A stretch of DNA of 64,000 bases from Buxus sempervirens. Taxonomy: Eukaryota > Streptophyta > Magnoliopsida > Buxales > Buxaceae. This document shows positions 36,057 to 59,487 of this stretch, in pieces. The stretch spans positions 44,535,220 to 44,599,219 of the forward strand of contig OX387186.1 in NCBI GenBank assembly GCA_947561395.2. The letters run 5' to 3'. The translations under genes and the position numbers were made by a program. Below the pieces are notes generated by a model, which worked only from the letters and a program-made list of their open reading frames with translations, had not been told where the DNA came from and made no database searches. Each line of letters opens with the position of its first letter. Within the stretch, counting starts at the first letter, position 1.

Positions 36057-36080
36057 GGGGGGGGGGGGGGGGGGGGGGGG
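36057..36080. repeat. 24-base poly-G at the left junction of the large element
   Basis: An uninterrupted G run abuts the 5' LTR. A shorter G10 run (59488-59497) abuts the 3' LTR. The target duplication is therefore hidden in poly-G (any GGGGG), and the exact insertion point within the run cannot be placed. Confidence 0.9.
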
Positions 36081-38384
36081 TGTAGACACCCCAAATTGCA
36101 CAATAATCATCAAAAATCATTATCTCCTTGAAAGCCAGCACAAAAATTGAAGAAAATAAGTTTTTACCTGTATCCGACAACTCAGGCCGGATACAAGTAC
36201 TCCTCTTTGTATCCGGTGAAGCATACTGGATACAAGAAGGCTTTAGTGTATCCGGTATTATATACCGGATACCTTAAGGCCCTTGTCTATCCGGCCTGAT
36301 ATACCGGATACATAAGTTTTGCTCAAAATTAGGGTTTTCCGAGAGCTTTCACTTTTTACTATCATGTCCTTCATTAAATGAAGGGAAATCTCGGAAATAG
36401 CCTTAGGGTTAAGGTTGGTGGGCTATAGACATTATGTTGTGTCTACCATTCTCACTAACCCTAACCCTAGCCTTTGCCTATAAATAGGAGGCTCCTACTT
36501 AAGCAAATGGCCATTAACTCTTGCTTTGAATTCTTGCCAAGAAAAGCTCCAAGAGAAGAGGGAAACCACTGCGGGATCGCTTCCAGAACCCAGGTAAGCC
36601 TCAAACTTTTCTTTTATTTTCTGTTTTTACATTTCTAGATCTAGATCTCTTCTTCTACCTTTCTGTAGAATAAGGCCTTTCTATGTGTGTGAAAACCCTT
36701 CCCCGGCTCAAAGTATCTCGAGACTCCCCCTAGCCGTAAAACGTGAAGGCAGGATCTAGGAGAAACGAGATTGGGGATTGACCCTAGTGCTAGAACCTAT
36801 GTAGCATAAAGCCTTTTTGAATGATTGAAAACAGTTTCATATTCAAAGTACCCCATGATTATCTTGAAGAACCGTGTTTAACGGGGAGAGAGAATAAAGG
36901 GAAACGATAATGGAACGGAACCCTAGGTTGTTTTAGAACCTTATTTTGATGAATATGTATGCATGCTATATTGTTATATTGATCTTGTATGATTTTTCAC
37001 ACTTGCACATACATATCACTATTTTGGCGAGATAGGCTCACATTTGAGGATTTATTACATTCATTGTGATAAATCACAAACAAATGGCCTCAATCAATTC
37101 TGGAATGTTGTTAAATGATTTTTAAAGGTTTTGTGTTCATTTTGCACGAATTACACACACTTGGTCACAGTTTTGCATTGGCTTTACTCAAAATGGCTTA
37201 GCTTGACAGCAACTGTACCCTTACTTCGGACGCTCATAACTTCATCGTCCGGATGAATTTTGGAGCGATTCCAGAACCATGGGAAAGGTGAGGCTGTCTA
37301 GTTTATGTCCATAAAATTTCATTAATTTCTATCAAGTAGATTTTTGACACCTTTCTGTCAAAGTTGATTGGACAGTTCAGGTTTAAATACGGAACTTGTC
37401 ACTTCGACGGAGCGCCATGTGTTCGTTTTAAGTCCGATTCGAATGATTTTTTTTTCTGGGCACTCCTTTATGAGTCTATTTTCAAACCCAATTAGTTTCA
37501 TAATTTTTTGACTCCATTTGAATTATTGATAACGGATTTACTCAGAACTATTCATCAATACTTTTCTGAGTAAATTTGTGATCTTCGGGGCCTGTTCGGG
37601 AGACCACCCAAGGCACATCCGAATGAGTTTTTGTATGAGGCTAGTTTCTTTTGAAATATGGCCATACAGACTTCATTGACACCAAATTTCGTGGGTTTTT
37701 ATGGAGTAGATTTTTCTAGGTGATTTTACAAAGTTGCCTACTTGCTACTTTTGATTTTCTCCGGCAGCAACTTTAAAAGAGCCATAACTCTTAGGATTTC
37801 AACCGGAATTAATTGAAATTTTGCATGAGACTATTGTTTACCCTAATCTTTCAAATGGATTTGGTTTGATTTAATTTAAAATTGGATTTGATTAATTTAT
37901 AGAGAAATGGCCTTACTTTTTACCAAATTTCCCGGATTTGCCTCAACTTGGTTTTGTGCAAATTTTGCTGTGATTTCCATCTTTTTGTGATATTAACATA
38001 AAAGAAGATCTGGAATTCATTTGGATTTTCATGTGAAGATATCATATATTTGTCCTTTTTCAAGGTTTTCATGATTTTTTAGCAAGCTTTCTATTTTCTT
38101 TTTGCATGAACAAACACTTGGCAACCACCTAGTGTGGGTGAATGGGGGTGCCTAACACCTTTCCTTGTTCATAATCTAATCCCCTTACCCATCTCTGGAT
38201 TTGATTTTCAAGTAGAGTTATTTTTACTCTAGAATTTGTCTTTTGGCTATTTTTGCTTATTTTTAAACTTTTGGTGCCCATTCACACCCAAAATCTGAAT
38301 GGTGGCGACTCTCCCAATTTTACGTTGAGCCCCATGTGTCGACGGGGGGATGATCATTCCGGTGATTTTTTCCCGTGTCATACA
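36081..38384 (+). repeat. 5' LTR (2304 bp)
   Basis: Nearly identical to 57171-59487. It holds the four-unit palindromic cassette (36171-36311), a telobox-like run CTAACCCTAACCCTAG (36455-36470) and TATAAATA (36479-36486). A splice-donor-like CCCAG|GTAAGCC lies near 36592. It lacks 14 bp present in the 3' LTR, lost (or gained there) between 8-bp GTGATATT repeats near 37990. Most other differences I saw are C/T or G/A. Confidence 0.95.
36171..36486 (+). promoter_or_regulatory. 5' LTR promoter: palindromic cassette, telobox, TATA
   Basis: Four palindromes with arms TATCCGG and CCGGATA start at 36171, 36210, 36249 and 36288, exactly 39 bp apart. The telobox-like repeat and TATAAATA follow, the TATA box lying about 167 bp after the last palindrome. 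TATA position and orientation fit transcription of the element's plus-strand RNA. Confidence 0.8.
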
Positions 38385-38386
38385 AC

Positions 38387-38404
38387 TGGCGACTCTGCTG
38401 GGGA
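38387..38404 (+). other. Primer-binding site
   Basis: TGGCGACTCTGCTGGGGA lies two bases after the 5' LTR. It starts with TGG, complementary to a tRNA CCA end, and is the type of site seen in TAT-lineage elements, for which tRNA-Arg has been reported as primer. I did not match it to a tRNA here. Confidence 0.8.
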
Positions 38405-39887
38405 CTTGTGGATTTAAGCCATTTTGTGTATATTCATGCTTTTTCTTCACTTTTGAATGCTTGCTATTTTGCTTATCTTATTTGTGCATATTGTTGTATC
38501 TTAAATCTGAATGGGATGTTTAAAAATTTGCATGGATAAAGGCATGGGCATGTTGCTTGATTTTTGTTTAAGGGAAAAACCCATATTGTTATATGACTTT
38601 GCTATATTATGTGTTAGCATTTATTTTGGGGTTTCAATGCCATGAGCTAAAAAAAAATTACAATATTTGAAATCTGGAAATTTTGTGTTGAGTATTCAAG
38701 CATGTTTCATATGAATAAAGCTTTTTTGTGCTTAATGTTTGTTTTATGCCATGCTTTGGATTTGGGGGGTATAGGATGACATGATTTGAGCATGAAAACC
38801 ATGAGCATGAAATCTGGAATTCAGAAGTTAATTTGGAGGTTTTCAAGCATGTTTTTACCATCAAAACTCTCCTTATACCATGTCAAGTAATTGCTAAATT
38901 TTTAGGCATTAATTTGGGGTATGAGTGATGCACTTTTGAACATGAAAAATCTGGAAATTTGAGTGTATTTCGGGGGAGATTTCAAGCATGTTTTACCTAA
39001 TTGAAACACTTTTGGACCATGTCAAGTAGTTACTAAAATTTTTTAGGCCTCAACTTGGGTAGAAATGGTACACTTTGAGCATGAAAATCTGGAATTTTAG
39101 GGAATGCTTTTGGGTTTCAAGCATGCTTCCATGGTTTAATTGTTGTTTGCACCAAATAACATGTTTGTATACCACTTTTTGGGCATGTAATATTTTTGTG
39201 CATATTTGGTTGCTTTGGCTCTTGCTTGCTTGTATTTAGCTTCATTATATTGTCATATGTGCCTTGGCTTGAAATTGAATGCATGGCTACGAAAAAGAGT
39301 GGCAAGGGGCTGGGACGTTGTGAATGTTACCTCAATTTTAAATTGCACTTGAGCACTTTAAACTATTTGCACAGCCTACCCATTACCTATAAGAAGTTGA
39401 ACCATGAATGTGTGTAGCTTGGCGCACCGAGGTCGTGACTTCGGAAAGCGAAAGTGAAAACATTTACCTTAGAATTTGAGTCAATGATGTGATGACAATG
39501 GGATCTGTGATTTGATTCCGGGCACCACTAGACTTGAGTTCTAAGTTGCCAATTAAGCCAAAACCCAAAAACCATGCGCTTGAAGGTGGAGAAACACGTT
39601 TTTAGCTAAAAGTACACAATTGCGTTTGGGGAATTGGGTGTAAATGTGGGAAGGCCGTTTGCATGTTTTACAGGCCAAGGTATAATGTGAATACCATATT
39701 GAATGAAGGTAATACAAGGTGGCAAGGTAATGCCATGTTCTTTTCATGAATTTGGGGAATTTTGCAAGTATGATGTCCAAGCCCAATTTGGGGCAAGTTT
39801 TGAAGGTCAAGTTAAGGTGAACATCAAGTGGGAATGAAAAAAAACCTAATCTGGTGAAAAAATGAGTCAAAAATGGCCATTTCGGCA
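38405..39887 (+). other. Untranslated leader of the large element, first part
   Basis: AT-rich text with loosely repeated phrases (GAAATCTGGAATT and TTTCAAGCATG recur about every 100-150 bp between 38660 and 39130). No gene is supported. Open frames of 60-110 codons on the minus strand, such as 39553-39888, lack recognisable domains. Confidence 0.5.
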
Positions 39888-40030
39888 TTAACCAGCAACT
39901 CAGGCCGGTTAAGAATAATTTTCTTCATATCCGGTATATATTGCCGGATACAAAGGCTTATGCGTGTATCCGGTCATTGTTGCCGGATACAATAAGACAT
40001 ATGCTTAGCCGGCACTTAATGCCGGATACA
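39888..40030. promoter_or_regulatory. Palindromic cassette in the leader, four units
   Basis: Units start at 39888, 39928, 39967 and 40006 (spacing 40, 39 and 39 bp). Unit 1 shares GCAACTCAGGCCGG with LTR unit 1, but its arms read TTAACC/GGTTAA instead of TATCC/GGATA, so both arms changed together. Spacer text such as TTTTCTTCA matches the cassette at 52087. No TATA box sits directly beside this copy. Confidence 0.8.
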
Positions 40031-40316
40031 TGCAGAAAATGAATAAATTGGCTTTTTCAGCCCGAATTTTCAGAATAAAATGCCTAAACACTGTGGATAA
40101 TCCTTAGGCACCCCAAAGAAAATATAAAAATGTCTAAAAAAAAAATAAAAATAAAAAAAATATATTCCTTTAAGATTAAACATAATGTTGAAACTCAAAG
40201 AACAAGCTAAGGTGTCATATTTTTTGATATCAACTCAATTCAAACATGTGTCAATCAACTTTTGAACTTGAAAACTGAGAAAATTCAGCAAATTTGAAAA
40301 AAAATAAAAAAAAACC

Positions 40317-40950
40317 TTGGTTGATTATTTTTATCAATCAAAATCAAAAAAAGTGGGACCTCTGGAAGCCCTAAAATATTCCATAAAAACCCTTGGTTGG
40401 TCTTTTTTGTACCAATCAAGTCAAAAAAAAAGTGGGACCTCTGGAAGCCCTAAACTATTCCATGAAACCCTTAGTTGGTCTTTTTTGTACCAATCAAATC
40501 AAAAATTGTGGGACCTCTGGAAGCCCTAAAATATTCCATAAAACCCTTGGTTGGTTATTTTTATCAATCAAATCAACATTTGTGGGACACTTGGAAGCCC
40601 TAGAATATTCCAAGAAACCTTTGATTGGTTATTTTTATCAATCAAATCAAAACATTTGTGGGACACTTGGAAGCCCTAGAATATTCCAAGAAATCTTTGG
40701 TTGGTTATTTTTATCAATCAAATCAACATTTGTGAGACACTTGGAAGCCCTAGAATATTCCAAGAAACCTTTGATTGGTTATTTTTATCAATCAAATCAA
40801 AACATTTGTGGGACACTTGGAAGCCCTAGAATATTCCAAAAAACCTTTGATTGGTTATTTTTATCAATCAAATCAAAACATTTGTGGGACACTTGGAAGC
40901 CCTAGAATATTCCAAAAAACCTTTGGTTGGTCTTTTTCGTACCAATCAAT
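40317..40950 (+). repeat. Tandem array A: about 8.5 units of 73-79 bp
   Basis: Each unit reads roughly TTGGTTGGTTATTTTTATCA, then CAAATCAA, then GGGAC...TGGAAGCCCTAGAATATTCCA. Two hairpins recur per unit: TTGATTG with CAATCAA, and TGGAA with TTCCA (extended to CTTGGAA/TTCCAAG in the later units). One more partial unit (GGGACCTTTGGAAGCCC) closes array B at about 41744. Confidence 0.9.
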
Positions 40951-41743
40951 TGATTTTTTTGGTCTCTCTAAAAGCCTCTGAATTTTAGACACATATCTCT
41001 GGGCCTTCTAAAAGCCTCTGAATGACATAACCTTTTTGGGCCATTTGAAAGCCTCTGAATTTCAAACGTCAATCTCTTTGGGCCATCTATAAGCCTCTGA
41101 ATTATAGACACATATCCTTTGGGCCGTCTAAAAGCCTCTAAATTTTAGACACAACCTTTTTGGGCCATTTGAAAGCCTCTGAATTTCAAACATCAATCTC
41201 TTTGGGCAAATCTATAAGCCTCTGAATTATAGACACATATCCTTTGGGCCGTCTAAAAGCCTCTAAATTTTAGACATAACCTTTTTGGGCCATTTAAAAG
41301 CCTCTGAATTTCAAACATCAATCTCTTTGAGCCATCTATAAGCCTCTGAATTATAGACACATATCCTTTGGGCCGTCTAAAAGCCTCTAAATTTTAGACA
41401 CAACCTTTTTGGGCCATTTGAAAGCCTCTGAATTTCAAACATCAACCTATTTTGGGCCGTCTATAAGCTTCAGAATTATAGACACATATCCTTTGGGCCG
41501 TCTAAAAGCCTCTGAATTTTAGACACAACCTTTTTGGGCCATCTAAAAGCCTCTGAATTTTAGACAAATCATTTCCTTGGGCCGTCTAAAAGCCTCTGAA
41601 TTTTAGACACAACCTTTTTGGGCCGTCTAAAAGCCTATGAATTTTACACACAACTTTTTTGGGCCGTCTATAAGCCTCTGAATTATAGACACGTATCCTT
41701 TGGGCCGTCTAATAGCCTTTGAATTTTATACATTTCTCATTCT
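40951..41743 (+). repeat. Tandem array B: about 19 hairpin monomers of about 41 bp
   Basis: Monomers begin GGGCC and contain AGCCTCTGAA between complementary arms. Three arm types alternate in a higher-order pattern: TCTAAAA/TTTTAGA, TTTGAAA/TTTCAAA and TCTATAA/TTATAGA. The loop and flanks are nearly constant. The monomer resembles the TGGAAGCC...TTCCA half of array A, so B probably grew out of A. Confidence 0.9.
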
Positions 41744-41905
41744 TTGGGACCTTTGGAAGCCCTAAAATATTCCAAGAATCAAAAAAATATATATAAATAA
41801 ATAAATAAAAATAAAAATAAAAAAAATCGGACTTGTGTTCACCTAACCCACTTGTCCACATTTATAGGGGTGTGTCTCAAATTAAATGGAAGCTGACTTG
41901 TCTCC

Positions 41906-44134
41906 TTGTTTTTCTTACCCCAGGTACACTTATTTGCAATCATTGCTCCCGTGACCAGATCCAAAGCCAGAGCCATGAACACTGAAGAGAACCAAGCCCA
42001 AGCTACCGTGCCCGCCCAAGACTTTGCTCAGCTGCAAGAGCAAGTGGCTGGTCTGGCCAAGATGCTGGGGGACTTACTGACGGCTCAGGCCCAACATGCC
42101 CAGGCCCAAAACCAGGCCTCTACCTCCCATCTAGCACCACCACCTCAGGCCTATATTCCGCCTCTGGCTCAACCCATGCCTGAGCCCATTTCTGAACCGG
42201 TCCCTGAACCTATTCTGATCAGGGAGAATACAGCAGAATCTGAGAAAGAACTGGAGAAGGAAAAAGCCAGGGAAGAAATGGAAAGAAAGATGCTACTCAG
42301 GATAGAGAGAATTCAGGAAGAATTGAAGGAGGTAAAGGGGGGAAACAGCTATGGAGGCACCACTTTTGATGAGCTCTGCATGTACCCGGATGTATGCCTA
42401 CCGGCCAAATTCAAGTGCCCGGATTTCGACAAATTTGACTGCACAGGCTGCCCTATGAGCCACTTGAAGCTATACTGCGGGGCCCTATGCCAATTTGGCC
42501 GGGATGACGGCATACTGATCCAACTCTTCCAGAGGAGTTTGACCGGGTCAGCTCTTAGGTGGTTCGCCACAGTGGACCACGGCAGGATTAGGAGGTGGAA
42601 GGACTTGGCCGACGCCTTCTTAGATCAATACAAGTTCAACGCTAAGATCGTGCCTGACCGGTACGACATGATGAGGATGAGTAAGGGGAAGGATGAGTCT
42701 GTACGGCAGTATGCCAAGAGGTGGAGAGAGGCCGCCTCCCAGGTCAGGCCGCCTATGCTGGAGCCTGAAATGATCTCGACGTTCATGGGTACACTGGGGC
42801 AGCCCTTCTACAACCATTTGGTGGGGCAGATCACCACCAATTTTGCAGCCCTGGTCCAGGTGGCAGACTGGATCGAGGAGGGGATTAGATTAGGAAGGCT
42901 TATCGACTATTCTACTTTGACTGGGCATTCTGATTCCGCTGCTTCCCTGGCATAGAAAAAGGGAACTGGGTTCAAAAATACAGGGGCCCGAAAGGAAGGA
43001 GAAGTGAACCTGGTCCAGGGGCCTCCTGCCAAGAAACCACTCCATGTTAACATCTCTGCACCCCAGCAGGCCCAACAGGCCCAGCAGTTGTACCAGACCT
43101 CGCATAATGTCAATTTCTCCCCTTCCGTGCCTGCAAACCAGAGGAGGACCTTTACTAAGGAGGAGCGGGAGGCCTAGATGGCAGCAAGGAGGAGTAGAGT
43201 CTTTACTCATCTCCCGATATCGCTGTCCCAACTGCTGCCAACCCTGCTGAAGGGGGAATATTTGACTCTGAAAGAGCCCAACCCGAATGCCCCGAAGGGG
43301 AGGAATTTTGATCCAGCCATCACATGCGACTATCACATGGGTGCACCGGGGCACTCTACTGACACTTGCTGGATGTTGAAGCATGCGGTCCAGGACCTGT
43401 TGGACCAGAAGGCCTTGGTGTTCAACACTGCTGCACCCACCCCGTTGGGAATTGATATTGGGCAGAACCCTCTGCCGTACCACAATGGGGCAGGCCCATC
43501 CAACTCTATCACAGCCATATCCACTGCAAGAAGGGCCTTTGACCCATCTCAGCTCATAGCTCCTGTAGGGACCACGGTCCAAGTCCGATTTTTCCAAGAA
43601 GAGGAAGAAGAGGAGATCAACATGGTCTCCCAGAAAAACAATCTTGCTGCTGAGGACATTAGCTCCTCTTTAAACCGGGTCTCCTCTCTTATGGCCCAAA
43701 TAAACACTGCAAGGCCTCCATTGGTCTTTAATTGCAGTCCACCTACTTATTCACCATCCAAGCCATCAAAGGCTCCACTGGTCATCAACCTTGACCCCAC
43801 CACTGCTTCCATCACTTCTTCTGTCCCCAAAAAATCCAAGCTCCAGCCCTTGGTTGTAAATATTCAGCCATCCCACAGTATCCCTAAACCGGCCCATACA
43901 TCCCGGTCCAAACTCCAGCCGTTGGTGGTTAACGTCCCTAAATTAGCCTATTCTAAGGCCGCTGTACCATGGAATTACAGCGAGGGAATCACGGCTACGG
44001 TTCCAGTGGTTAGGAACCAGGAGGAGGTGAACCTCATGACGAGGTCGGGGAAATGTGTAGGGGGTGAAGAGAAGGAGAAGGAAACAGAAGCAGAAAATGA
44101 AAAAAAAGAAAACAGAAAGGAAAGGCAAAAATAG
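41906..44134 (+). pseudogene. gag region of the large element
   Basis: This is the capsid-type polyprotein of a Ty3/gypsy element. After an acceptor-like CTTACCCCAG, the frame reads PVTRSKARAM, the usual gag opening, but the expected initiator before APVTRSK is ATT, so the first usable methionine is at 41975. Then come a Gln/Pro-rich stretch, a Glu/Lys coiled-coil region and a retrotransposon gag domain at about 42360-42900 (FDKFDCTGCPMSHLKLYC, GSALRWF, EYRDMMRM-like core). TAG codons interrupt it at 42953 and 43175. The frame continues through a zinc-knuckle-like CDYHMGAPGHSTDTC segment (43326-43372) and ends in Lys/Glu-rich text with an A8 tract near 44101, where the frame is lost. Confidence 0.85.
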
Positions 44135-45654: not shown

Positions 45655-47607
45655 GTGGAATGCCATTTCCCTGAAGGTTCTAATGGGCCTTTGTCTTCAG
45701 GGGAATTATGTTTAGAAGGCTTACAAAAAACCCAAAAAGATTTTTCTATTTTTTCTAAAAAATTTAAATTTTTCAAAAGAGTCCAAACCACTTATGAACC
45801 ATATAATCAGACCGAATTGGACCAGGTTGAATATGACTTCGACCTTGAGCTCGACTTTGACCTCATGGGGATCGAAGAAGAGACCGAGGTCGAAGAAGAA
45901 GACATTCCAAGAGAAATTGAATACCAATTGGAATGTTATGAAAAGGGGGTCCAACCTAATATTGAGGAGACCATATCCATAAATCTTGGGACCGAAGAGG
46001 ACCCAAAAATTGTGAAAATCGGGTCATGCTTCTCTGATGTGCAGAAAAATGAAATGTCACAATTCTTGGCAGACTACAAAGATGTGTTCGCTTGGTCATA
46101 TCGGGACATGCCGGGGTTGGACACGGACATGGTGGTGCATAAGTTGCCAATTTTGCCAGGGGTTAAGCCAATTAAACAGAAGATGAGAAGATTGAAGCCA
46201 GAATGGACCTTGAAGGTCAAGGACGAAGTGGTCAAACAATTTCAAGCCGGATTTTTGGCAGTCTCTACGTACCCTGAGTGGCTCGCAAACATAGTGCCAG
46301 TACCAAAGAAGGACGGGAAAGTCAAAATGTGCGTGGACTACAGAGATTTGAATAAGGCAAGCCCTAAGGATGATTTTCCGCTTCCACACATCGACATTCT
46401 GGTCGATAATACTGCTGTACATAGCCTATTTTCCTTCATGGATGGTTTCTCGGGGTACAATCAGATCAAGATGGCTAAGGAAGATCAAGAGAAAACAGCA
46501 TTTATCACACCTTGTGGCACATTCCACTATACAGTCATGCCGTTTGGGCTTAAAAACGCAGGGCAACATATCAGCGGGCCATGACAGCACTATTCCATGA
46601 CATGATCCACAAGGAGATGGAGGTCTACGTGGATGATATGATCGCCCAAGTCGTGCAAAGAAGAGGACCACTTGATCAATCTGAAGAAAGTGTTTGATCG
46701 GCTCAGGAAGTACAGTCTACGGCTTAACCCGGCTAAGTGCGTCTTTGGAGCTACATCAGGGAAGTTATTGGGATTTATTGTGAGCCGAAGAGGAATTGAA
46801 ATTGACCCGGCTAAGGCCAAGGCCATAATTGAAATGCTAGCACCCAGAACCGAGAAGGAGGTTCGTGGTTTTCTCGGGAGGATTCAATACATAAGCCGGT
46901 TCATAGCACAACTCACTGCAATCTGTGAACCTATTTTCAAGCTTCTAAGGAAGGATAACCCAACGGTCTGGAATGAGGATTGCCAGCAGGCCTTCGATAC
47001 GATCAAGGAATATTTACTGAACCCACCTGTGCTAGTGCCACCAACCCCAGGAAGACCACTGATCCTGTACTTGTCAGTGTTGGAAACGTCGATGGGATGT
47101 GTCTTGGGGCAGCATGATGAGACTGGTAGAAAAGAAAGGGCCATTTACTATCTGAGTAAAAAATTCATGGAATATGAAGCCAAGTATTCACCATTGGAGA
47201 AGACTTGCTGTGCTCTAGTGTGGGCCACTCAGAGGCTAAGGCATTACTTCCTTAGTCATTCCACACTATTGATATCCCGGATGGACCTGCTAAAGTATTT
47301 ATTTGAGAAACCGGCATTGACTGGCGGGACGACAAAATGGCAACTGCTACTGTCCGAATTTGACCTCACATACATCACCCAGAAGGCGATTAAGGGTCAA
47401 GCCATAGCTGATCACCTGGCCGCACATCCTCTGCCAAAATACCAACCCTTGAAGACCAACTTCCCAGATGAGGCAATTCTATACACTAAAGAGGAGGAAA
47501 GTGAGAGTTCTTGGCAGATGTTCTTTGATGGGGCCGCCAACATGAATGGTAATGGAATAGGGCAGTTTTGGTTAAACCAGATAGTTCACATATCCCGATT
47601 GCAGTAA
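45655..47607 (+). pseudogene. Reverse transcriptase and first RNase H of the large element
   Basis: RT motifs are in order: MPGLDTDMVVHKLPI, PVPKKDGKVKMCVDYRDLNK, FSFMDGFSGYNQIKM, FHYTVMPFGLKNAG and YVDD (46626-46637). The RT thumb and a Ty3-type RNase H follow (TSMGCVLGQHDE, KYSPLEKTCCALVWA, about 47085-47290). One G is missing in the GGGG-type run at about 46562, an extra C lies near 46650 and another G is missing near 47561, each shifting the frame. The protein cannot be made as written. Confidence 0.88.
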
Positions 47608-47905
47608 AGCTGAGATTCCAGTGCACCAATAATATCGCAGAATATGAAGCATGCATAATTGGGTTACAAGCCGCCATGGATCATGAAGTAGAGGAACTTG
47701 ACTTATACGGGGATTCGAGTCTTATTATCTTCCAAACAACTGGTGAGTGGAAAACCAAGGATCAAAAATTGATCCCCTATCACCAGTATTTGGAAGAAAT
47801 AAGCACAAATTTCACTCGAATTTCCTTCAACTATATGCCAAGGGCCAAGAATCAGTTTGCGGATGCTCTAGAAACATTGGCTTCAATGGTCAGCATACCA
47901 GAAGG
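47500..47905 (+). pseudogene. Second, archaeal-type RNase H domain (aRNH)
   Basis: WQMFFDGAANMNGNGIG is followed, after a one-base deletion near 47561, by NNIAEYEACIIGLQAA, LDLYGDSSLIIFQ and a final NQFADAL. The D-E-D-D pattern of an RNase H fold is visible. A second RNase H downstream of the Ty3 type is diagnostic for the TAT lineage. Confidence 0.85.
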
Positions 47906-49241
47906 AGTAGACATCAGACCACTGGAAATTGAAGTCAGAGATGAACCGGCTTACTGTCTCGTTCTAGAGGGAGCACCAGAAGAAGAAACACCATGGTTTC
48001 AAGATATCAAAAATTTCTTGAACAATCGGAGTCTACCAGAAAATGCCACGTCTACTGAGAAGATGACAATACAGAGGTTGGCGGGTCAGTTTCTGCTAAG
48101 TGGTGGACATTTGTACAAGAGGTCACATAACGATATTCTGCTCAGATGTGTAGCCAAGGCTGAATCGGAAAGACTGATTGAAACTGTACATGGAGGAGTT
48201 TGTGGGCCCCAATTGAGCGCGCACATGCTGGCAAAGAAGATCTTGAGGCTGGGCTACTACTGATCGACCATGGAACATGATTGCTGTATACATGTCAGGA
48301 GGTGCCATCAATGTCAAATCTATGCAGATAATAAGCATGCACCCCCGGGTGAGTTGCACAACATGACGTCCCCATGACCTTTCTCTATGTGGGGCATAGA
48401 TGTTATTGGCATGATCTCCCCTAAGGCATCGAACGGGCACAGATTCATCCTGGTGGCGATTGATTACTTCACTAAATGGGTGGAAGCAGCATCATATGCA
48501 AATATCACAAGCAACCATGTTATTAAGTTTTTGAAGCACAATATCATTTGTCACTATGGACTGCCAAGTGCCATAGTATCAGACAACGCTTCAAATATTA
48601 AGAACAAGGACATGAAGAAAATGTGTGAGCAGTTTCAGATCACCCACCATAAGTCAGCTCCATACAGGCCAAAGATGAATGAGGCAGTGGAAGCAGCAAA
48701 TAAGAATATAAAGAAAATCATTCAAAAGATGGTAGTAAGCTACAAGGATTGGCACGAAATGCTGCCACTTGCTCTACATGCCTACAGAACCTCAATCCGG
48801 ACTTCAACTGGGGCAACCCCATATTCCCTAGTCTATGGGATGGAAGCAGTCTTGCCCGTGGAAGTAGAGATCCCATCACTCAGAGTGCTCATGGAAGCAG
48901 AACTGGAAGAAGCCGAATGGATACAGTCAAGACATGATCAACTCAACTTGATAGAAGAAAAGCGGTTGAAAGCGCTTTGTCATGGACAGTTGTACCAGAA
49001 AAGAATGGCCCGGGCCTACAATAAGAAAGTGAGGCCCAGAACTTTCCAAGAAGGAAATCTAGTTCTAAAGAAAATTCTACTATTTTTGGAAGACCCTCGT
49101 GGTAAGTTCAAGCCCAATTGGGAAGGGCCTTATGTCGTCAAGAAGGTCCTGTCAGGGGGTGCACTCATCTTAGCAGAAATGGATGGGACAGATTTTCCTG
49201 AGCCAATTAACTCTGATGCCGTAAAAAGGTATTTTCCTTGA
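47906..49241 (+). pseudogene. Integrase of the large element
   Basis: The N-terminal HHCC zinc-binding text spans about 48188-48330 (ending RRCHQCQIYAD). The catalytic core starts at WGIDVIG (48399), continues with a second Asp in SDNASNIKN, and the final Glu lies in EAANKNIKK. The C-terminal part has the typical PRTFQEGNLVLKK and GPYVVKKVL. Two TGA codons (48261 and 48375) stand where tryptophan is expected, and SDNAS replaces the usual SDNGT-type text. The frame ends at 49241 and marks the end of pol. Confidence 0.88.
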
Positions 49242-50231: not shown

Positions 50232-51956
50232 CTAATCTCTGTCTCCTAGCCGCTCCTCAAGCTCCTGAATCCGAGCTGCCTGAGCTGCAATAACTTCTAA
50301 AGCCCCCTTTGTAGCGGGATCACTCAAAAAGGAAATAACCTCATCTGAAAGAGTCTGCCTAATCCGCATGCTCCTAAGGCTGGCTAAAGCATCCTAATGT
50401 TTCTGCCTCAGTGCTCGGACTTCAAGACAGCGGGCCTGCCTATGCTCCTCAAGTTGCTTTTCCATAGCCAGACGGCGAGATACCTGCTCTGCAAGTTGCC
50501 TTTCCATATCAAGGCCCCGTATCCTAAGCTCCTGGGCCTCTCGTACCCATATCTGCTGAAGTTGCTTGTGGGAGGCTCTCTCAGACTCTAAAATATCCTC
50601 ATAAGTAGGAGCCAAGACTGCAGGAGGATCTTCAGGTACTGGAGCCTGACTCTGTATCTGCTCCCTGATCCAGAAGAGATAATCCTTCACATGGGCTTCT
50701 GAGAAGACGGGGCCACGCATAAAGCGAACATAGGACCACTCCCTCATCAACCAGGCATTCAGCTTCATGGTAGCTGGAGAAAGGGGCCCAAGATGATCTT
50801 CGTACCCATTTGGGACTATAATCCCCTGGGTCGCTCTAAACTGGCGAAGGACCCGCAAAGGAAGATAAAGCACTGCATATCTCAGGCCAGCTAGAATCAG
50901 AAAGTTGCGGTCTCGGAAGCTAATCACAGTCTCTGCATTGGGTTGATAAGTATCAGGCCATCTCACCTGGTCATCCTGGAGTGAACCCAAGAAAGTGAAC
51001 CAACCCTGTTTGCCCCCTAGAATATCGGGACACCCCCGGTTGCTCATCAAGATGGGGACTTTCAAGCTCGGGAAGAAGTGTCGATTAATTTCCTCAATTT
51101 GACTCAGATGATCAAGTAGCCAAAGCTTCAAAGGAAGAGAGATATATCAGCACATTGTAAAAGAAAAAAAAAGCAAAAAAGCAAGAAAAAAGCAAAAAGA
51201 AAGAAAAAAGCAAAAATAACAAAAAAATAAAAAAAATTTTTTTTTTACCTGCAAGATCTAGGCACATGCTAGGAAGCGTTTCGACTTCCTATTGTAGCAA
51301 TCAGTCAAGGCCTGATACATCCCAGCCAAAATCATAGGGGCCAACCTCTCCCGCTCCCTAACCTGGCATATCACTGAGATCAGGGCCAAGTCCACCTCGT
51401 CATCATCTCGTGGGAAAAGTAGCTGGTTGACCACTGTCAAGGTCAAGGCGTTGAACCGGGCTTCCTTATTTTCCCCTCTCAAAAGCTTCTCAGTCAAAAA
51501 AGACTTAGACAAGGTCAATAGGGTGTCAGAATCTCCTAAGTCCTTCTTCCCTATGCCCAGAAAAGTAGAAGCCTCCTTTTTGTAACTGGGCCTAACAGGT
51601 GGATTCACCACCTTCTCATCAAACCTCAAGCCCAGGATGGTTTCCACCTCCTCGATGGTTGGGGTCATCTCATGGTTCCCAAAATGGAACAAGTTGAGGT
51701 CAGGAACCCAATGACCAATCATGGCCTCTATAATCTCCCACTTGAAGGGAACCTTTGGAATGAGCAGGATGTGGCCTAGATTAGTGGAATCCCATCTCCT
51801 CTCCTCATTAAGAGTCCTAGAGTTAACACATCTTGTGTAAAAGGAATCCACAGGGTTGTACCTAGTGAGATTTAGTGGTTTTGATCTAAAAGGTTGTTTT
51901 GCAGGGGAGGCAGTGTGGACAGACAATAATGGGGCAGAAGATGATCCGGATTCCAT
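50232..51956 (-). pseudogene. Antisense gene 1: DUF7745-like (plant-mobile-domain-related) protein, two exons
   Basis: Exon 1 is 51249-51956 and exon 2 is 50232-51125. They are joined by a 123-bp A/G-rich (sense T/C-rich) intron with GT/AAG borders, phase 0. The start is MESGSSSAPLLSVHT, about 110 bp after the TATA box at 52066-52073. Exon 1 carries FYTRCVNSRTLNEE, IEAMIGHWVPDLNLFHFG and EMTPTIEEVETILGLRFDE. Exon 2 opens LWLLDHLSQ and ends in a Glu/Arg-rich coiled coil. This is the DUF7745-type domain found in many plant retroelements and related genes; its function is unknown. TAG codons interrupt it at 51258-51260 (three codons before the donor) and at 50394-50396, so the copy is broken. 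Family name is from memory. Confidence 0.8.
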
Positions 51957-52065
51957 TGGAGTTGATGGGAGCAAGCTAGAACTCAAGGGGAGGAAGAAAA
52001 AGGCGAAAAAGGGGTTTTCTAAACTCAAAAACTCGTAAAAAATGAGCAAATCCCGATGCTGGTTG

Positions 52066-52227
52066 CATTTATAGCATGTTTTAAAGAATCCGGCATATCA
52101 GACCGGATACAAGGCATTTTCTTCATATCCGGTGAATAATGCCGGATACAAAGGATTTTTAGTGTATTCGGTATATTATGCCGGATACAAATAAAACTCA
52201 ATGTATCCGGTCTGATATGCCGGATAC
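52066..52227 (-). promoter_or_regulatory. Promoter of antisense gene 1: TATA box beside a four-unit palindromic cassette
   Basis: On the minus strand, palindromes starting (plus coordinates) at 52087, 52126, 52165 and 52204 are exactly 39 bp apart. They run up to TATAAATG at 52066-52073, which is 13 bp from the nearest unit. Arms are as in the LTR (TATCCGG/CCGGATA). Confidence 0.8.
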
Positions 52228-52431
52228 AAAGAAAAACAGCAAAAAAAGAGAGCAAAGGATAAAAAATCTGAATTTTTTTACCTGTTTTACCTGTGTACAA
52301 GTCATAATTGCATAAAATTGAAAAGAAAAGAAGTGCAACACAAGAGAGAATGAATAAAAATATTTTCTTATATATGCAAGTTTTTCTATACAAGGTGTGG
52401 TATAAATACATGGAAAAAAAATCCTAATCTA

Positions 52432-55080
52432 CTACTCCTGTGCAAGATCATCCCCGCGTCCACCTCTACGGCCTCTCCCTCGAAGCGATCGGCCCCTAGA
52501 GTAGGCCAGAATACGCTCGGCAGCGTGACGAGGAAGCTGACCCACCACTTGCTGGATCTGATACTCCAAGCAATACTCCTCAAGGTCTAGGGGCGGAGCA
52601 GGAGCAGAATCTGGAGAGGATGCCTCGGGCTCAGCACGAGCAGGCTCAACTGGACCCGTAGATCCAGAAGGCCCAGCAGCATCAAAGGAAGGGCCAGGAA
52701 CAGAAGTATCTGGGTCAATAGAAAAAAATCAGAAAATTGAGATATAAAGAGGAACCAAAGAGGGAAAAATTAAAAGAGAACGTACCAGGAATATCTGCAG
52801 TAGGAACAGGAGGATCCGGCTCAACTGGGTCAGCAACGGGGACATCCACAGGATCAGCAGCCCGAACCGGAGATAGATCAGGAGCCGGAGGAGTTGGCTC
52901 GTAAGCAGCGTCATCCGGGACTGGGCCCTGGACAAGTCAAACAAGCATATCAGAATAGCAGAAACAGGAAAATTAAAGATGTTAAATTATAAGAAGACCA
53001 GATACCTGTCTAGCCTGGAGCTCAGAAACCGGAGCCTCCAGCTCTCTGATCCTAGCATCCCTCTGGGCCACGACCGCATCATGCTCGGCGATCATATCAT
53101 CGATCGCGGCCCGCTGGCTCTCGAACCGGTCCCGGATAATATTCAGCTCGTGTACCTGCCAGCAAGAACAGAATTGGGGTCAGAAATACAGAAGGGAAGA
53201 AAAGTGGATGAAAATATGAAGATTACAAGACTCACCGTATCATCGTGGATCCGGACATAGATCCCGCCAATCTCGGTCACCCCGGCACAAGTGGGCTGAT
53301 CCATCAAGCACCCAATGGATACTCTCTGGATCCACTCGTCGTAATCTCCAGCTACTGTGAGCCCCTCTGCATCCAGGAAATGATCGAACTAATCCACATC
53401 AAAGCCCGGGAGGAGTGTGTCGGGACCCATAGGAGGAGGGGGAACGGGAATACGAAGTGTGCCTGTGTGCTGATAGTACAGGCGCTCTCCCAAATACATC
53501 ACCCTACCAAGCCTCTCAAGGAAGCACTGGTAGGGCTAACGTCGGAGGTCTCTATCAAAAGCATCCTGTACTATCATCTCACGGGCCACTTCGACATCCA
53601 CGTCATCAAAGCGTGCCAGGAGGAGCTACAAAGAAGAAAAAATAGTCAGATACAGTCAAGGTGCAGGAAAAGAAACAAAAGGAAAAAGGCAAAGAATTTA
53701 CATCGAATCGTCGGGCGCGGTCCAAGTGAACCCGAGCAGTGCGAGGCTGACTCCTATCAGCATCTCGGACCTGGGCCGACCAGTGTAAAGCAACAGGGAA
53801 ATCCGCGACCTCAGGTACCGGGGATGGGCGGAAGAAAGTCATATAGGTGTACATAAACACCTGGCAAAAGAAAATCAGTCAAGAGATAAAGAAGATAAAG
53901 CCTAAGGAAGTAAACCAGACAGATGAATTCAATACCTGTAGAATCTGCCAAAAGAACCGGCTGCTGACTCCATCACCTCTCGGGGATGCCAGGCCTCGAA
54001 CCGCTCGGCACAACTCGGCTAGGATGGTCCCATAGATGAGTCGACCCCATTCTAGCTGGCGGGTCTGATGAAAATCTCTCAAGGCGTCCAAAAAGAGCGG
54101 GCTGACGCTGGTCGTATCCTCCGGGAAGAAGCAGCTCCCGAGCATCAGCAGGAAAACATGCCGGAAGATAGGAACAAAAGCTGCATCCTCCACTGCGACA
54201 GTCGCGTGTCTCCCCCCGTAATGACGAGCCAGGCTCTCCAGCAGCCAACTAATGGAGAGACGGCCACTCCGCCCATCCCAAGCAGCGGGAGGCAGGGCCG
54301 GATATCCCAGGAGGAGGCTAATATCCTCCGCAGAAGGTCGATCCAAGACGATGGTCCGCCCCGTCAAAGGAATACCGGTAATCATCACAAAATCGGAGGG
54401 ACGGATCCCTAGCTCCACGTCCGGTAGATGGAAGGACTGCGTCTCCGGGAAATATCTCTCCATCATAGCAAAAATGAGTGGACGGTCGGCTCTAAACGAT
54501 GGAATGCTAAGAAAATGATCCAAATGGCACCTCCTAAACTCGCGTCTGAGTGCCGGAGAAAGAGACTGTGCCAACTCACTAAATCTCCCCCAACTGCCTC
54601 GCAAATGGGAGGAGTGATACGGAAGAGGCACATCGGCCCTGATGCACATGGAGGGGTGGCTATCCAAGCCACTGAGGAGCTCTGTATCATGAACAGATGC
54701 CCTCAGCTCCTCAGAGACCCCTGACAGAGCTACAGCAGCACCATCCTGAGCTGCACCTCTGGCTCTGCCACGGCCTCCCTCGCCCTCAAGGGCCTGATCC
54801 TGAACTCTCCCTCGGCCTCTGCCTCGACTTCGAGTAGGAGCGACAACGGGCTAAAATCCAAAGGGGAAATGTGAAGGTTTGTGTAGGAAGAGGATAGAAG
54901 AAAAAGGAAGAGAAGAATTTGAAAGCCTACCTCAGCAGAGCCCTCAGCAGAGCTCTCCCTGGAGACATCCAGTGGCTCCGACAGGGTGTCGCTGGGACTC
55001 GCCTCTGTCCGAGCCCGCGAAGTGGAGGGCTGATCAGCAGGGTCAGCCTCCTCTCTAACTCGAGAATGACTCCTAGCCAT
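52432..55080 (-). pseudogene. Antisense gene 2: plant mobile domain (PMD) protein, seven exons
   Basis: Exons are 54931-55080, 53936-54850, 53702-53860, 53236-53625, 53006-53155, 52786-52927 and 52432-52709. All have GT/AG borders and keep one frame of about 727 codons. The N-terminus is acidic/Ser-rich, then Arg/Gly-rich (RSRGRGRGR). The plant mobile domain fills exon 2 (FSELAQSLSPALRREFRRC, LPDVELGIRPSDFVMITGIP, PAAWDGRSGRLSISWLLESL) and continues into exon 3. Exon 5 is a coiled coil, exon 6 is Pro/Asp-rich, and the tail is RGRGRRGGRG. PMD occurs in MAIL1-type nuclear proteins and in transposons; the function here is unknown. TAG at 53536-53538 and at 53389-53391, both in exon 4, break the frame. 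A 5' UTR intron may end directly before the ATG (CCTGTGTAG|ATG). Confidence 0.82.
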
Positions 55081-56532
55081 CTACACAGGGAAGTGTTTTA
55101 TGAGTTGATCAGAAATTTTACCTTGTTTTTGGTCTAGGTTCACAAGATTATTTTTCAAAATTATCGTGAATTATGTCTCGAGGGGATTTTATCTCATTTG
55201 TGTTATCTACAAAGTTTTGGGAAGTGAGAGATATTTTCTGTTTCTAATTCTAAAACATTTCTCCTAACCCTAAAAGATTCTTACAATACTTAATATTTCC
55301 TAATATGTTGTGATTACAGGATACAGGAAAGATAAAGGCCAAAGGATCAGAAACAGGAACTGCAGAAAAAAAAATTTTCAAACTGACATGACAAGCTTTC
55401 GTCATCAGCAATACAAAAGCATGTAATCAATGATTTCAGTGGAATAATATCACTAGCAGGTCAATCCTGAAATTGCAAAGAATCGGATCAAGGTAAAGAG
55501 GTCCGAGCCAAATGTAGAAAAATCCAGCATAAGAAGCACACAAAGCATGCAATCAGCAATCCAAGGAGTACCACCGGCAGGCAATTTAAAGCTCTTGGAT
55601 ACCATCGATACAGGCATGTCGCAAGCCACCATTACATAAGCGGACAGTGTTAAAGAACCACAGTTCTGGAATGGGCAGGTTCAAGTTGAATGTCGAAGCA
55701 AAACAGACATGGCATCAACTCGGGAAAATTCTATCACCAGCAGTATTGGAAAGGCAAAATCAGGCCATTGGGAATTAGCATGGGAACAGTGGAAAAATAT
55801 GTCCAGCAGGACAATCTTAAGGAATTACAGCCAATTGGAGACCAAAGCTTGTTCCAACATGCAATCAGGAAATCTAGCATGCAATCAGGAAATCTAGCAT
55901 GCAATCAGGAAATCAGCAGTCCAGGGAACCAAAGCATCAACCATCTATACTCAAGCAAACCAATCATTTATAAGAAAGGCTGTCAAGCATGATTAATCTC
56001 AATCCATGCAACAATTCAGTTCATGCACAAACCAAAAATCAGTTAGAAATTACCATTGGAGGGTAATTCAAAGTTGCTGTCAATTTAAGGACAGAAGCAT
56101 GCAAAATTTGTCAAAGCCACAATCCAAGTATGCTGCAAACGTGCAATCGGCCAATAAAAAAAATTTTTTTTTGCTTACCAATAGTGCCGAACAGTGGAGT
56201 GCAAGGTTGGAAAAGGGATCGGCCAGGAGTTGGAAGGATGCCGAAAATCGAAGAAGGCCACCAAAGCCTGGGTAATGGCGACTAAGAGTCACTTGGGAGC
56301 AAGGACGAAAACTCCTCAACGATTCTAGGGCTCGATCGCAGCAATAAATGTGTGTAGCCGGAGTCAATCCAAGTCGCCGGAGTCAATGGAGGGTCGCCGG
56401 AGCTCGAGGACTCGTCGGAAATGACCAGAGAAGGAAGGAGGACCGTCGGTCGACGAAGAAGGAAAGAGATGTAGCCGGGGTTTGCAAACGGAGAAGGAAG
56501 AAAAGAATGTGAAAAGTCGCGGTCGCGCGCGA
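55081..56532 (-). other. Presumed 5' leader and leader intron of antisense gene 2
   Basis: There is no coding text between the TATA box at about 56536 and the ATG at 55080. An acceptor-like GTGTAG touches the ATG, so a leader exon near 56380-56505 could be spliced across about 1.2 kb. A 19-bp phrase (CATGCAATCAGGAAATCTAG) repeats in tandem at 55858-55915. This is inference from signals only. Confidence 0.45.
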
Positions 56533-56611
56533 CTTATAAAGCCGTGTGTATCCGGTGAATCAGGTCGGATACACACGAGCCCTGCCTTATCCGGTATCCT
56601 ACACCGGATAC
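56533..56611 (-). promoter_or_regulatory. Promoter of antisense gene 2: TATA box beside a two-unit palindromic cassette
   Basis: Palindromes start at 56549 and 56588, 39 bp apart. TTTATAAG (minus strand, 56533-56540) lies 8 bp from the nearer unit. The inter-unit text read on the minus strand resembles LTR units 3-4, so this cassette is inverted relative to the LTR and keeps the LTR's order towards its own TATA. Confidence 0.75.
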
Positions 56612-56762
56612 AAAAGAAAAAGAAAAAAAAAAGAGAAAAAAAAGAAAAAAAGAGAAAAAGAAATGAAAAAAGGAAAAAAAGAAAAGAAAAAAGAAGAAGG
56701 GGAAAATAGAAAAAGAAAAAAAACAGAAAAAAAAGAAGAAGAAGAAAAAAGGAAAATAGCAC
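56608..56762. repeat. 155-base purine tract upstream of antisense gene 2
   Basis: An almost pure A/G run (AAAAGAAAAAGAAAAA...), i.e. pyrimidines on the antisense-gene strand, lies just upstream of its palindromes and TATA. CT-rich upstream tracts are common at plant promoters. Lys/Glu-rich open frames here are products of the low complexity. Confidence 0.85.
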
Positions 56763-56806
56763 AAATGTGCTACAAAGTTCGCTATTTTCTCACAAAATCC
56801 TATTTT

Positions 56807-57000
56807 TGCCTTAAAATCCACCTCACAGCCACGAGAGCTCAGTGGAATTTAGGACAACTTTGGGAAATGTGCTGGTCAAAAAGGAAGATATCCACTCAAT
56901 TTTCAACTTGGTTTGATAAAAAAATCAGTTTTCAAGAAATCATATTTTCGGGCTTAAAATCCACTTCATAGCCACGAGAGCTCAGTGGAACTTAAGAACT
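56807..57000. repeat. Two copies of a conserved phrase, 140 bp apart
   Basis: AAAATCCACCTCACAGCCAC with GAGAGCTCAGTGGAA near 56813 recurs near 56955 with small changes. It lies between the antisense promoter and the 3' LTR. Role unknown. Confidence 0.75.
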
Positions 57001-57157
57001 CTTGGAGAGATGCCCCCCTTAAAGTTAGGGCTTTTTGGCAAATCTTCACCCAAAAATTGTTTTTTTACAAAATTGAATTAAATCAAGCAAATCATGCTTA
57101 AGGGAGTACAATTTGGGCTTGTCTAATCTTTGCAGCTCACTGCTTCACAGCTCCCGC

Positions 57158-57166
57158 AAAGAGGGG
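57158..57166 (+). other. Polypurine tract
   Basis: AAAGAGGGG followed by TAGT lies directly before the 3' LTR, the expected place and composition for plus-strand priming. Confidence 0.75.
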
Positions 57167-57170
57167 TAGT

Positions 57171-59487
57171 TGTAGACACCCCAAATTGCATAATAATTAT
57201 CAAAAATCATTATCTCCTTGAAAGCCAGCACAAAAATTGAAGAAAATAAGTTTTTACCTGTATCCGGCAACTCAGGCCGGATACAAGTACTCCTCTTTGT
57301 ATCCGGTGAAGCATACCGGATACAAGAAGGGTTTAGTGTATTTGGTATTATATACCGGATACCTTAAGGCCCTTGTGTATCCAGCCTGATATACCAGATA
57401 CATAAGTTTTGCTCAAAATTAGGGTTTTTCGAGAGCTTTCACTTTTTACCATCATGCCCTTCATTAAATGAAGGGAAATCTCGGAAATAGCCTTAGGGTT
57501 AAGGTTGGTGGGCTATAGACATTATGTTGTGTCTACCATTCTCACCAACCCTAACCCTAGCCTTTGCCTATAAATAGGAGGCTCCTCCTTAAGCAAATGG
57601 CCATTAACTCTTGCTTTGAATTCTTGCTAAGAAGAGCTCCAAGAGAAGAGGGAAATCGCTGCGGGATTGCTTCCAGAACCCAGGTAAGCCTCAAACTTTT
57701 CTTTTATTTTCTGTTTTTACATTTCTAGATCTAGATCTCTTCTTCTACCTTTCTGTAGAATAAGGCCTTTCTATGTGTGTGAAAACCCTTCCCCGGCTCA
57801 AAGTATCTCGAGACTCCCCTAAGCCGTAAAACGTGAAGGCGGGATCTAGGAGAAACGAGACTGGGGATTGACCCTAGTGCTAGAACCTATGTAGCATAAA
57901 GCCTTTTTGAATGATTGAAAACCGTTTCATATTCAAAGTACCCCATGATTATCTTGAAGAACCGTGTTTAATGGGGAGAGAGAACAAAGGGAAACGATAA
58001 TGGAACGGAACCCTAGGTTGTTTTAGAACCTTATTTTGATGAATATGTATGCATGCTATATTGTTATATTGATCTTGTATGATTTTTCACACTTGCACAT
58101 ACATAGCACTATTTTGGCGAGATAGGCTCACATTTGGGGATTTATTACATTCATTGTGATAAATCACAAACAAATGGCCTCAATCAATTTTGGAATGTTG
58201 TTAAATGATTTTTAAAGGTTTTGTGTTCATTTTGCACGAATTACACACACTTGGTCACATTTTTGCATTGGCTTTACTCAAAATGGCTTAGCTTGACAGC
58301 AACTGTACCCTTACTTCGGACGCTCATAACTTCATCGTCCGGATGAATTTTGGAGCGATTCCAGAACCATAGGAAAGGTGAGGCTGTCTAGTTTATGTCT
58401 ATCAAATTTCATTAATTTCTATTTAGCAGATTTTTGACACCTCTCTGTCGAAGTTGATTGGACAGTTCAGGTTTAAATACGGAACTTGTCACTTCGACGG
58501 AGCGCCATGTGTTCGTTTTAAGTCCGATTCGAATGATTTTTGTTTCTGGGCACTCCTGTATGAGTCTATTTTCAAACCCAATTGGTTTCATAATTTTTTG
58601 ACTCCATTTGAATTATTGGTAACGGATTTACTCAGAACTGTTTATCAGTACTTTTCTGGGTAAATTTGTGATCTTCGGGGCCTCTTCGGGAGACCACCCA
58701 AGGCACATCCGAATGAGTTTTTGTTTGAGGCTTGTTCCTTTTGAAAGATGGCCATACAGACTTCATTTACACCAAATTTCGTGGGTTTTTATGGAGTATA
58801 TTTTTCTAGGTGATTTTACAAAGTTGCCTATTTGCTACTTTTGATTTTCTCCGGCAGCAACTTTAAAAGAGCCATAACTCTTAGGATTTCAACCGGAATT
58901 AATTGAAATTTTGCATGAGACTATTGTTTACCCTAATCTTTCAAATGGATTTTGTTTGATTTAATTTAAAATTGGATTTGATTAATTTCAAGAGAAATGG
59001 CCTTACTTTTTACCAAATTTCCCGGATTTGCCTCAACTTGGTTTTGTGCAACTTTTGCTGTGATTTCCATCTTTTTGTGATATTCCAGAAGTGATATTAA
59101 CATAAAAGAAGATCTGGAATTCATTTGGATTTTCATGTGAAGATATCATATATTTGTCCTTTTTCAAGGTTTTCATGATTTTTTAGCAAGCTTTCTATTT
59201 TCTTTTTGCATGAACAAACACTTGGCAACCACCTAGTGTGGGTGAATGGGGGTGCCTAACACCTTTCCTTGTTCATAATCTAATCCCCTTACCCATCTCT
59301 GGATTTGATTTTCAAGTAGAGTTATTTTTATCTAGAATTTGTCTTTTGGCTATTTTTGCTTATTTTTAAACTTTTGGTGCCCATTCACACCCAAAATCTG
59401 AATGGTGGCGACTCTCCCAATTTTACGTTGAGCCCCGTGTGTCGACGGGGGGATGATCATTCCGGTGATTTTTTCCCGTGTCTCACA
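57171..59487 (+). repeat. 3' LTR (2317 bp)
   Basis: Nearly identical to the 5' LTR. Its palindromic cassette starts at 57261, 57300, 57339 and 57378 (39 bp apart), and TATAAATA is at 57569-57576. It could drive read-out transcription into the right flank. Units 3 and 4 have lost CCGG symmetry in places (TATTTGG; CCAGC...CCAGAT) relative to the 5' LTR, consistent with C-to-T or G-to-A change after insertion. Confidence 0.95.

Follow-up and report, generated by a model that had tools for sequence, protein, structure and literature searches.

A 64,000-nucleotide stretch of the Buxus sempervirens genome (assembly GCA_947561395.2, contig OX387186.1, positions 44,535,220 to 44,599,219 of the forward strand; the window) contains a retrotransposon bounded by two long terminal repeats (LTRs), which from the order of its Pfam domains we read as a Tat-type member of the Ty3/gypsy superfamily. 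Between the LTRs lie a leader with tandem repeats, a gag open reading frame (ORF), the pieces of pol and, between pol and the 3' LTR, two antisense genes with matches to models of the plant mobile domain (PMD) type (Table 1). The element carries 18 dyad-symmetric palindromes of the form GTATCCGG-N9-CCGGATAC, grouped into five arrays of four, four, four, two and four units: in the 5' LTR, the leader, near 52 kb (52k array), near 56 kb (56k array) and in the 3' LTR. Because the arrays of the two LTRs copy one array, the independent array positions number four and not five. We consider it probable, from the sequence, that the arrays are a shared cis-regulatory module that coordinates three promoters and is bound by a dimeric protein.

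Table 1 Features of the Buxus retrotransposon, in positions of the window
Feature	Position	Strand	Remarks
5' LTR	36081..38384	+	TG...CA ends, G runs on both flanks; self-comparison, boundaries read
Array 1, four units, 5' LTR	36170..36311	+	upstream of TATA box; starts 36170, 36209, 36248, 36287
TATA box of the putative LTR promoter, TATAAATAGG	36479..36488	+	168 bp 3' of array 1
Splice-donor-like CAG/GTAAG	36591..36598	+	3' of LTR TATA box; consensus only
Putative primer binding site, TGGCGACTCTGCTGGGGAC	38387..38405	+	after 5' LTR; no tRNA assigned
Array 2, four units, leader	39888..40029	+	starts 39888, 39927, 39966, 40005
Leader tandem repeats, 76-bp and 41-bp	40309..41732	+	units with short palindromes
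gag ORF	41906..42955	+	ATG 41975; Pfam Retrotrans_gag
pol pieces (reverse transcriptase, RNase H, second RNase H-like RVT_3, integrase core)	45655..49241	+	several ORFs; Pfam
Antisense gene 1, DUF7745/PMD	50394..51956	-	two exons by eye; frame continues past 3' stop
TATA box, GCTATAAATGC	52066..52073	-	between array 3 and antisense gene 1; 13 bp from array 3
Array 3 (52k), four units	52086..52227		starts 52086, 52125, 52164, 52203
Antisense gene 2, PMD	52432..55080	-	several exons by eye; in-frame stops in this copy
TATA box, GCTTTATAAGTCG	56533..56538	-	between array 4 and antisense gene 2; 10 bp from array 4
Array 4 (56k), two units	56548..56611		starts 56548, 56587
3' LTR	57171..59487	+	aligned to 5' LTR
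Array 1 copy, four units, 3' LTR	57260..57401	+	starts 57260, 57299, 57338, 57377

The 18 palindromes in five groups that an earlier note on this DNA had described were all present, its group starts lying at most one base off. The note had given the spacing as 39 bp with a single step of 40 bp; measured centre to centre, every within-array step across all 18 dyads is 39 bp, and we attribute the supposed exception to the last leader unit, whose left arm is degenerate. Seventeen dyads show zero to two mismatches to the 16 arm bases, and the remaining one, the unit at 39888, shows five and is altered alike in both arms; 20 Markov shuffles of the window yielded two sites in total with up to three mismatches. 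A sequence-blind scan that required three successive, evenly spaced dyads recovered the 5' LTR, leader and 52k arrays together with one 41-bp tandem repeat, and returned nothing from 10 shuffles. It missed the 56k and 3' LTR arrays because of their two units only and decayed arms, respectively. Scored with a position weight matrix built on 14 of the 18 sites, the dyads reach 17 to 40 bits and the next site in the window 5.7 bits; the best lone half-site, at 12.9 bits, is exceeded by 30 of the 36 paired half-sites. No extra unit was found on the 39-bp lattice past either end of any array.

It had also been argued that 39 bp is close to four helical turns, so that the units would face the same side of the DNA. 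At 10.5 bp per turn, 39 bp amounts to 3.71 turns; adjacent dyads are therefore rotated by roughly 100 degrees, and this argument falls. The facing arms of adjacent units are 22 bp apart, near two full turns.

The 36 half-sites have the consensus tGTATCCGGYVW: every one carries a pyrimidine at position 9, none has T at position 10, and at position 11 there is T in 25, A in 10 and C in one. The arms are held and the loops vary, as previously described, but the loop is not free, since positions 9 to 11 are constrained. The choice between C and T at position 9 is independent between the two halves of a dyad (CC 4, CT 3, TC 6, TT 5; Fisher p = 1), and for this reason a dimer reading DNA would suit the pattern better than base pairing. 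Mismatches number 15 in the left arms and 5 in the right arms (144 bases each). The first leader unit (39888-39912) keeps the loop of LTR unit 1 letter for letter, but its two arms bear the same change (TTAACC...GGTTAA), an outcome that template switching inside a palindrome could produce.

An alignment can be made unit for unit among the LTR, leader and 52k arrays, whose loop and spacer identity exceeds that of 2000 shuffles (p 0.007 or less). These three arrays therefore share descent, which bears out the homology proposed earlier. The orientation of the leader and 52k arrays, said to follow the LTR, is upheld by the spacers (direct 19 to 25 of 42 versus inverted 12 to 14 of 42), the loops being nearly equal (direct 18 to 25 of 36, inverted 15 to 23 of 36), and the inversion of the 56k pair is weakly supported. 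Compared inverted with LTR units 3 and 4, that pair matches at 12 of 18 loop and 8 of 14 spacer positions; the best direct matches give 12 of 18 and 3 to 5 of 14.

Among the LTR, leader and 52k arrays the arms are identical at 52 to 59 of 64 positions (81-92%), against 45-69% for loops and spacers by the direct counts above (Fisher p 2e-4 or smaller). Since insertion, the 5' and 3' LTRs have come to differ at 7 of 64 arm positions, none of 36 loop positions, one of 42 spacer positions and 55 of 2161 positions in the LTR remainder, a divergence that is higher in the arms (Fisher p 0.0016 versus the rest and 0.023 versus loops and spacers). The arms decay fast in the inserted copy, yet are the best kept part between arrays; we therefore regard the pattern as left by selection on active copies. 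Within the arms, changes between the LTRs affect 4 of 16 CpG positions and 3 of 48 other positions, and across the entire LTR 11 of 108 CpG positions, a bias consistent with methylation and silencing of the copies. For gene conversion to imitate this behaviour of the arms, it would have to leave the loops and spacers untouched.

TATA boxes beside the arrays are new relative to the earlier note. Array 1 precedes the TATA box of the LTR, and arrays 3 and 4 lie directly upstream of minus-strand TATA boxes heading into antisense genes 1 and 2. A minus-strand TATA-like site occurs within 20 bp of 1.3% of positions in 49300-57100, a figure that is a guide and not a test because the TATA pattern was chosen after the sequence had been read. 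The ATG of antisense gene 1 (51956) stands about 117 bp past GCTATAAATGC. Downstream of GCTTTATAAGTCG, a donor-like GGTAAGC at 56179 suggests a 5' untranslated exon and an intron ahead of antisense gene 2 (ATG 55080).

We propose that the arrays are copies of one upstream activating or anti-silencing module, and that a dimeric, sequence-specific protein would occupy them as double-stranded DNA, with one dimer per 39-bp unit. Placed 5' of the LTR TATA box and of both antisense TATA boxes, the module would let a single factor act on the promoters of the two accessory genes as well as on the genomic/gag-pol promoter, and the leader array may act as an intronic or downstream enhancer. Transcription start at these TATA boxes, protein occupancy, dimerization and the sign of regulation are what we infer from the arrangement. 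An array for a dimeric protein had been suggested before, and the suggestion is supported in part: the dyads, the constant arms, the independent pyrimidine and the adjoining TATA boxes fit it, and the helical argument has to be dropped.

Several observations weigh against this proposal. Everything has been read from one element copy. The leader array is without a convincing TATA box nearby, the nearest plus-strand TATA-like site being AT-rich and 94 bp off. By its spacers, array 3 has the orientation of the LTR and its gene runs the opposite way, so that orientation to transcription is not uniform; plus-strand TATA-like sites do occur 142 and 174 bp from array 3, inside the 3' part of antisense gene 2, and we take these to be chance. 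The alteration of both arms alike in unit 39888 is not predicted by recognition of one fixed sequence. The dyads contain eight pair types, a number reached by 10 of 500 shuffles (one of five measures), and the arrays fold strongly as RNA, with best 110-nt windows of -47 to -57 kcal/mol (plus strand) and -41 to -52 kcal/mol (minus strand).

The last point could mean that the arrays act as RNA, their hairpins feeding small-RNA production or serving the genomic RNA, and that their closeness to promoters is secondary; we judge this improbable. All five arrays fold below -40 on both strands, a cut-off taken from the treatment of microRNA-like regions in PMC10760457, and the 583 windows taken along the element have a mean of -23 and a fifth percentile of -37, although best windows are here set against an average and the comparison is not like for like. 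By position, a full-length genomic RNA would include the leader, 52k, 56k and 3' LTR arrays; the array in the 5' LTR precedes the LTR TATA box, which speaks against such a role. The arms, moreover, barely covary: two cells of the dyad helix are changed on both sides, the covariation score is reached by 29 of 500 shuffles, and positions 9 and 17 vary independently and form three C-A mismatches in the 18 dyads. Some symmetry in change is present in the dyads. Because position 9 is independent and covariation weak, the 39-bp arrays look more like double-stranded recognition sites, and an RNA hairpin as their selected feature is disfavoured, although the strong folding leaves it some probability. 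Palindromic clusters in the LTRs of maize Sireviruses are described as drawing small RNAs (PMC10760457), and the Buxus arrays could also do so, in which case DNA and RNA roles would both be possible. It is less probable again that the arrays are functionless tandem repeats of single origin, spread by gene conversion or template switching, with palindromy kept by template-switch correction. Such a history would agree with the homology of the arrays and with the matched change in unit 39888, but conversion poorly explains the retention of arms but not of loops and spacers, or the TATA boxes beside arrays 3 and 4, and the faster decay of the arms in the inserted copy also argues against neutrality.

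If a dimeric protein does bind the arrays, a host factor is in our view the likelier binder, ahead of a PMD protein encoded by the element, which would be a doubtful candidate. R1-type MYB proteins (TATCC core) and LOB-domain proteins are candidate host factors. The sub-case in which antisense PMD-type protein(s) bind the arrays and activate or unsilence all three promoters, in a circuit like that of VANC, the anti-silencing protein of VANDAL transposons, is accordingly put forward as unlikely, and slightly less likely is its fuller form, in which both proteins bind the lattice at the LTR, the leader and their own promoters and thereby jointly switch or unsilence three transcription units located on two strands. 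Model matches are found in both genes: the first exon of antisense gene 1 matches Pfam DUF7745 (E 6e-18) and PMD (E 1.5e-12), and antisense gene 2 matches PMD (E 1.5e-12). The Arabidopsis PMD proteins MAIN and MAIL1 are required for expression of genes whose promoters carry a motif (PMC7156037), and VANC proteins bind arrayed short motifs in non-coding parts of their own element (PMC5735166). However, the passages cited treat DNA binding by PMD proteins as a hypothesis and not as shown (PMC7156037, PMC9899485), and give it as not known whether the PMD complex contacts chromatin (PMC9899485). The motifs of VANC21 are in one orientation (PMC5735166), whereas those here are dyads. A host factor is also suggested by a Citrus Sirevirus of the copia type, whose RM box AATCCGGCTWRCCGGATT has the ATCCGG/CCGGAT arms of the Buxus element (PMC2829016), a match that could be chance because 13 boxes are listed and 12 have the CGG core.

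Against a binder encoded by the element, neither of two queries found a PDB relative at E up to 1, and a single-sequence model of antisense exon 1 was unusable (mean predicted local distance difference test score, pLDDT, 37.7). Exon 1 of antisense gene 1 was the only protein searched for protein relatives, and none of its 396 candidates reached E 0.001 or better. Coiled-coil dimerization of the antisense proteins seemed likely by eye, but a crude heptad score was no better than that of shuffles in the four scorable of five pieces, and we do not claim it. No paper in the searched collection mentions DUF7745.

The tandem repeats of the leader behave differently. The 41-bp repeat (40966-41731) consists of 19 tandem palindromic units, in which 8-base arms enclose a 9-base loop, GCCTCTGAA, that hardly varies. 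Its arms covary (GTCTAAAA/TTTTAGAC, ATCTATAA/TTATAGAC and ATTTGAAA/TTTCAAAC), none of 500 shuffles reaching the score of the 19 units (12 of them distinct), and covarying arms around a near-constant loop are the opposite of what the 39-bp arrays present. Against an RNA role of the 41-bp repeat, independent events are few, because the three stem types alternate as a higher-order repeat, the unit at 41006 pairs poorly, and the stretch folds no better than its shuffles (z -0.43, 7 of 20; best 110-nt fold -26 to -27). The 76-bp tandem repeat (40309-40949) has two palindromes per unit by eye, one with a loop, GCCCTARAMTA, that resembles the loop of the 41-bp repeat, and none of 20 shuffles folds as well (z -2.94).

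The leader may also be spliced. The donor pattern [CA]AGGTAAG has two plus-strand matches in the window, one of them at 36591, and the sole acceptor-like site found in 41000-42000 is at about 41912-41923, before the gag ATG. The leader array may lie inside an intron. By consensus only, splicing from the donor at 36591 to an acceptor at about 41923 would remove the leader array and the hairpin repeats together with the primer binding site, and would set gag mRNA apart from genomic RNA.

Assignment of the element to the Tat clade follows the Pfam order RVT_1, RT_RNaseH, RVT_3, rve, in which RVT_3 is, in our reading, the Tat additional RNase H (aRH). The PMD genes favour the Ogre lineage. The mark of Retand, an antisense gene with Transposase_28, is absent from the antisense pieces scanned, which contain PMD/DUF7745 above the cut-off. 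Aligned over 2303 positions, the two LTRs show 63 substitutions, with 15 further gap columns, and the copy is decaying, with pol split among several ORFs and in-frame stops in both antisense genes (exons read by eye). A G run and GGTACCTTAG-like repeats adjoin the element (36060-36080 and 59488-59946), the latter including 10.9 copies of 22 bp at 59582-59825; a target-site duplication is hidden because of the G runs at the element ends. Another pair of direct repeats in the window (1-1836 and 11513-13348, 97% identity across 1837 bp) perhaps represents the LTRs of another, degenerate element. Within 1-36000 there was no complete ORF of at least 200 amino acids, and neither the dyad search nor the sequence-blind scan found a 39-bp array there. 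An Rfam scan of 36000-60000 gave no match at the gathering threshold.

Searches for relatives were made in IMG/VR, prokaryote genomes and plasmid sequences. In IMG/VR, 107 stretches contain a TATCCGG-N9-CCGGATA dyad, and 31 of these have at least two dyad-like sites (up to four mismatches), but a 39-bp-spaced pair occurs in none of the 107. One contig (L050:3480-3790) carries three such dyads as well as further ATCCGG repeats, irregularly spaced (85 and 58 bp); the repeats of L050 and L091 look unrelated to the Buxus element. Exact lattice patterns gave no matches in IMG/VR (two units) or in prokaryote genomes (one and a half units), as expected because these collections are not meant for plants, and the LTR had no match among plasmid sequences.

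The shared array would bear on the functions of antisense genes in the Tat clade and of transposon PMD proteins. It supplies a concrete target sequence, which locates the search for a binder and predicts co-expression of sense and antisense genes, and it would serve as a defined probe for DNA binding by PMD proteins. With Retand the element has in common a long region from pol to the 3' LTR that holds antisense genes (PMC11963269, PMC6317226, PMC7264820). An antisense gene with Transposase_28 is given there for 97% of recent Retand clusters, PMD for 57% of Ogre elements, orientation not stated (PMC6317226), and gene23 of Grande as transcribed from its own antisense promoter (PMC11963269, PMC6317226, PMC7264820). 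In contrast to the Buxus element, no palindrome array common to LTR and antisense promoters is named in the parts of these papers that we cite (PMC11963269, PMC6317226, PMC7264820), and among the matches listed in our literature search none described such arrays in Ty3/gypsy elements. As far as those matches show, three points are new: a Tat-type Ty3/gypsy element carries such arrays, their lattice is strict, and they are used beside likely antisense PMD promoters.

VANDALs are Mutator-like DNA transposons. The Buxus element resembles them in having arrays of short motifs in non-coding parts, extra encoded genes and arrays that evolve as tandem repeats (PMC5735166, PMC10398659). It differs in that the VANDAL motifs are in one orientation, at high density and with a known element-encoded binder, whereas here dyads occur in a retrotransposon and a binder is proposed (PMC5735166). 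The kind of arrangement is known from Sireviruses, in which palindromic CGG-CCG boxes precede both the LTR TATA box and an extra gene. The RM boxes of these Ty1/copia elements are palindromic, have a CGG...CCG core in 12 of the 13 listed, are present many times over in the LTR's upper half, ahead of the TATA box, and recur upstream of env in elements that possess it; the text cited terms them Sirevirus-specific and absent from the classic retrotransposons compared (PMC2829016). The Buxus element likewise has a palindromic CGG-CCG box in many copies upstream of the LTR TATA box and further copies at additional genes (arrays 3 and 4, by the antisense genes), but by domain order it is Ty3/gypsy and not a Ty1/copia Sirevirus, its loop is 9 bp and its spacing strictly 39 bp, and its extra genes are antisense PMD genes with their own TATA boxes, where Sireviruses have a sense env (PMC2829016). 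If a host factor binds the arrays, the resemblance to the Sirevirus boxes would mean that two retrotransposon superfamilies have converged on one host regulator.

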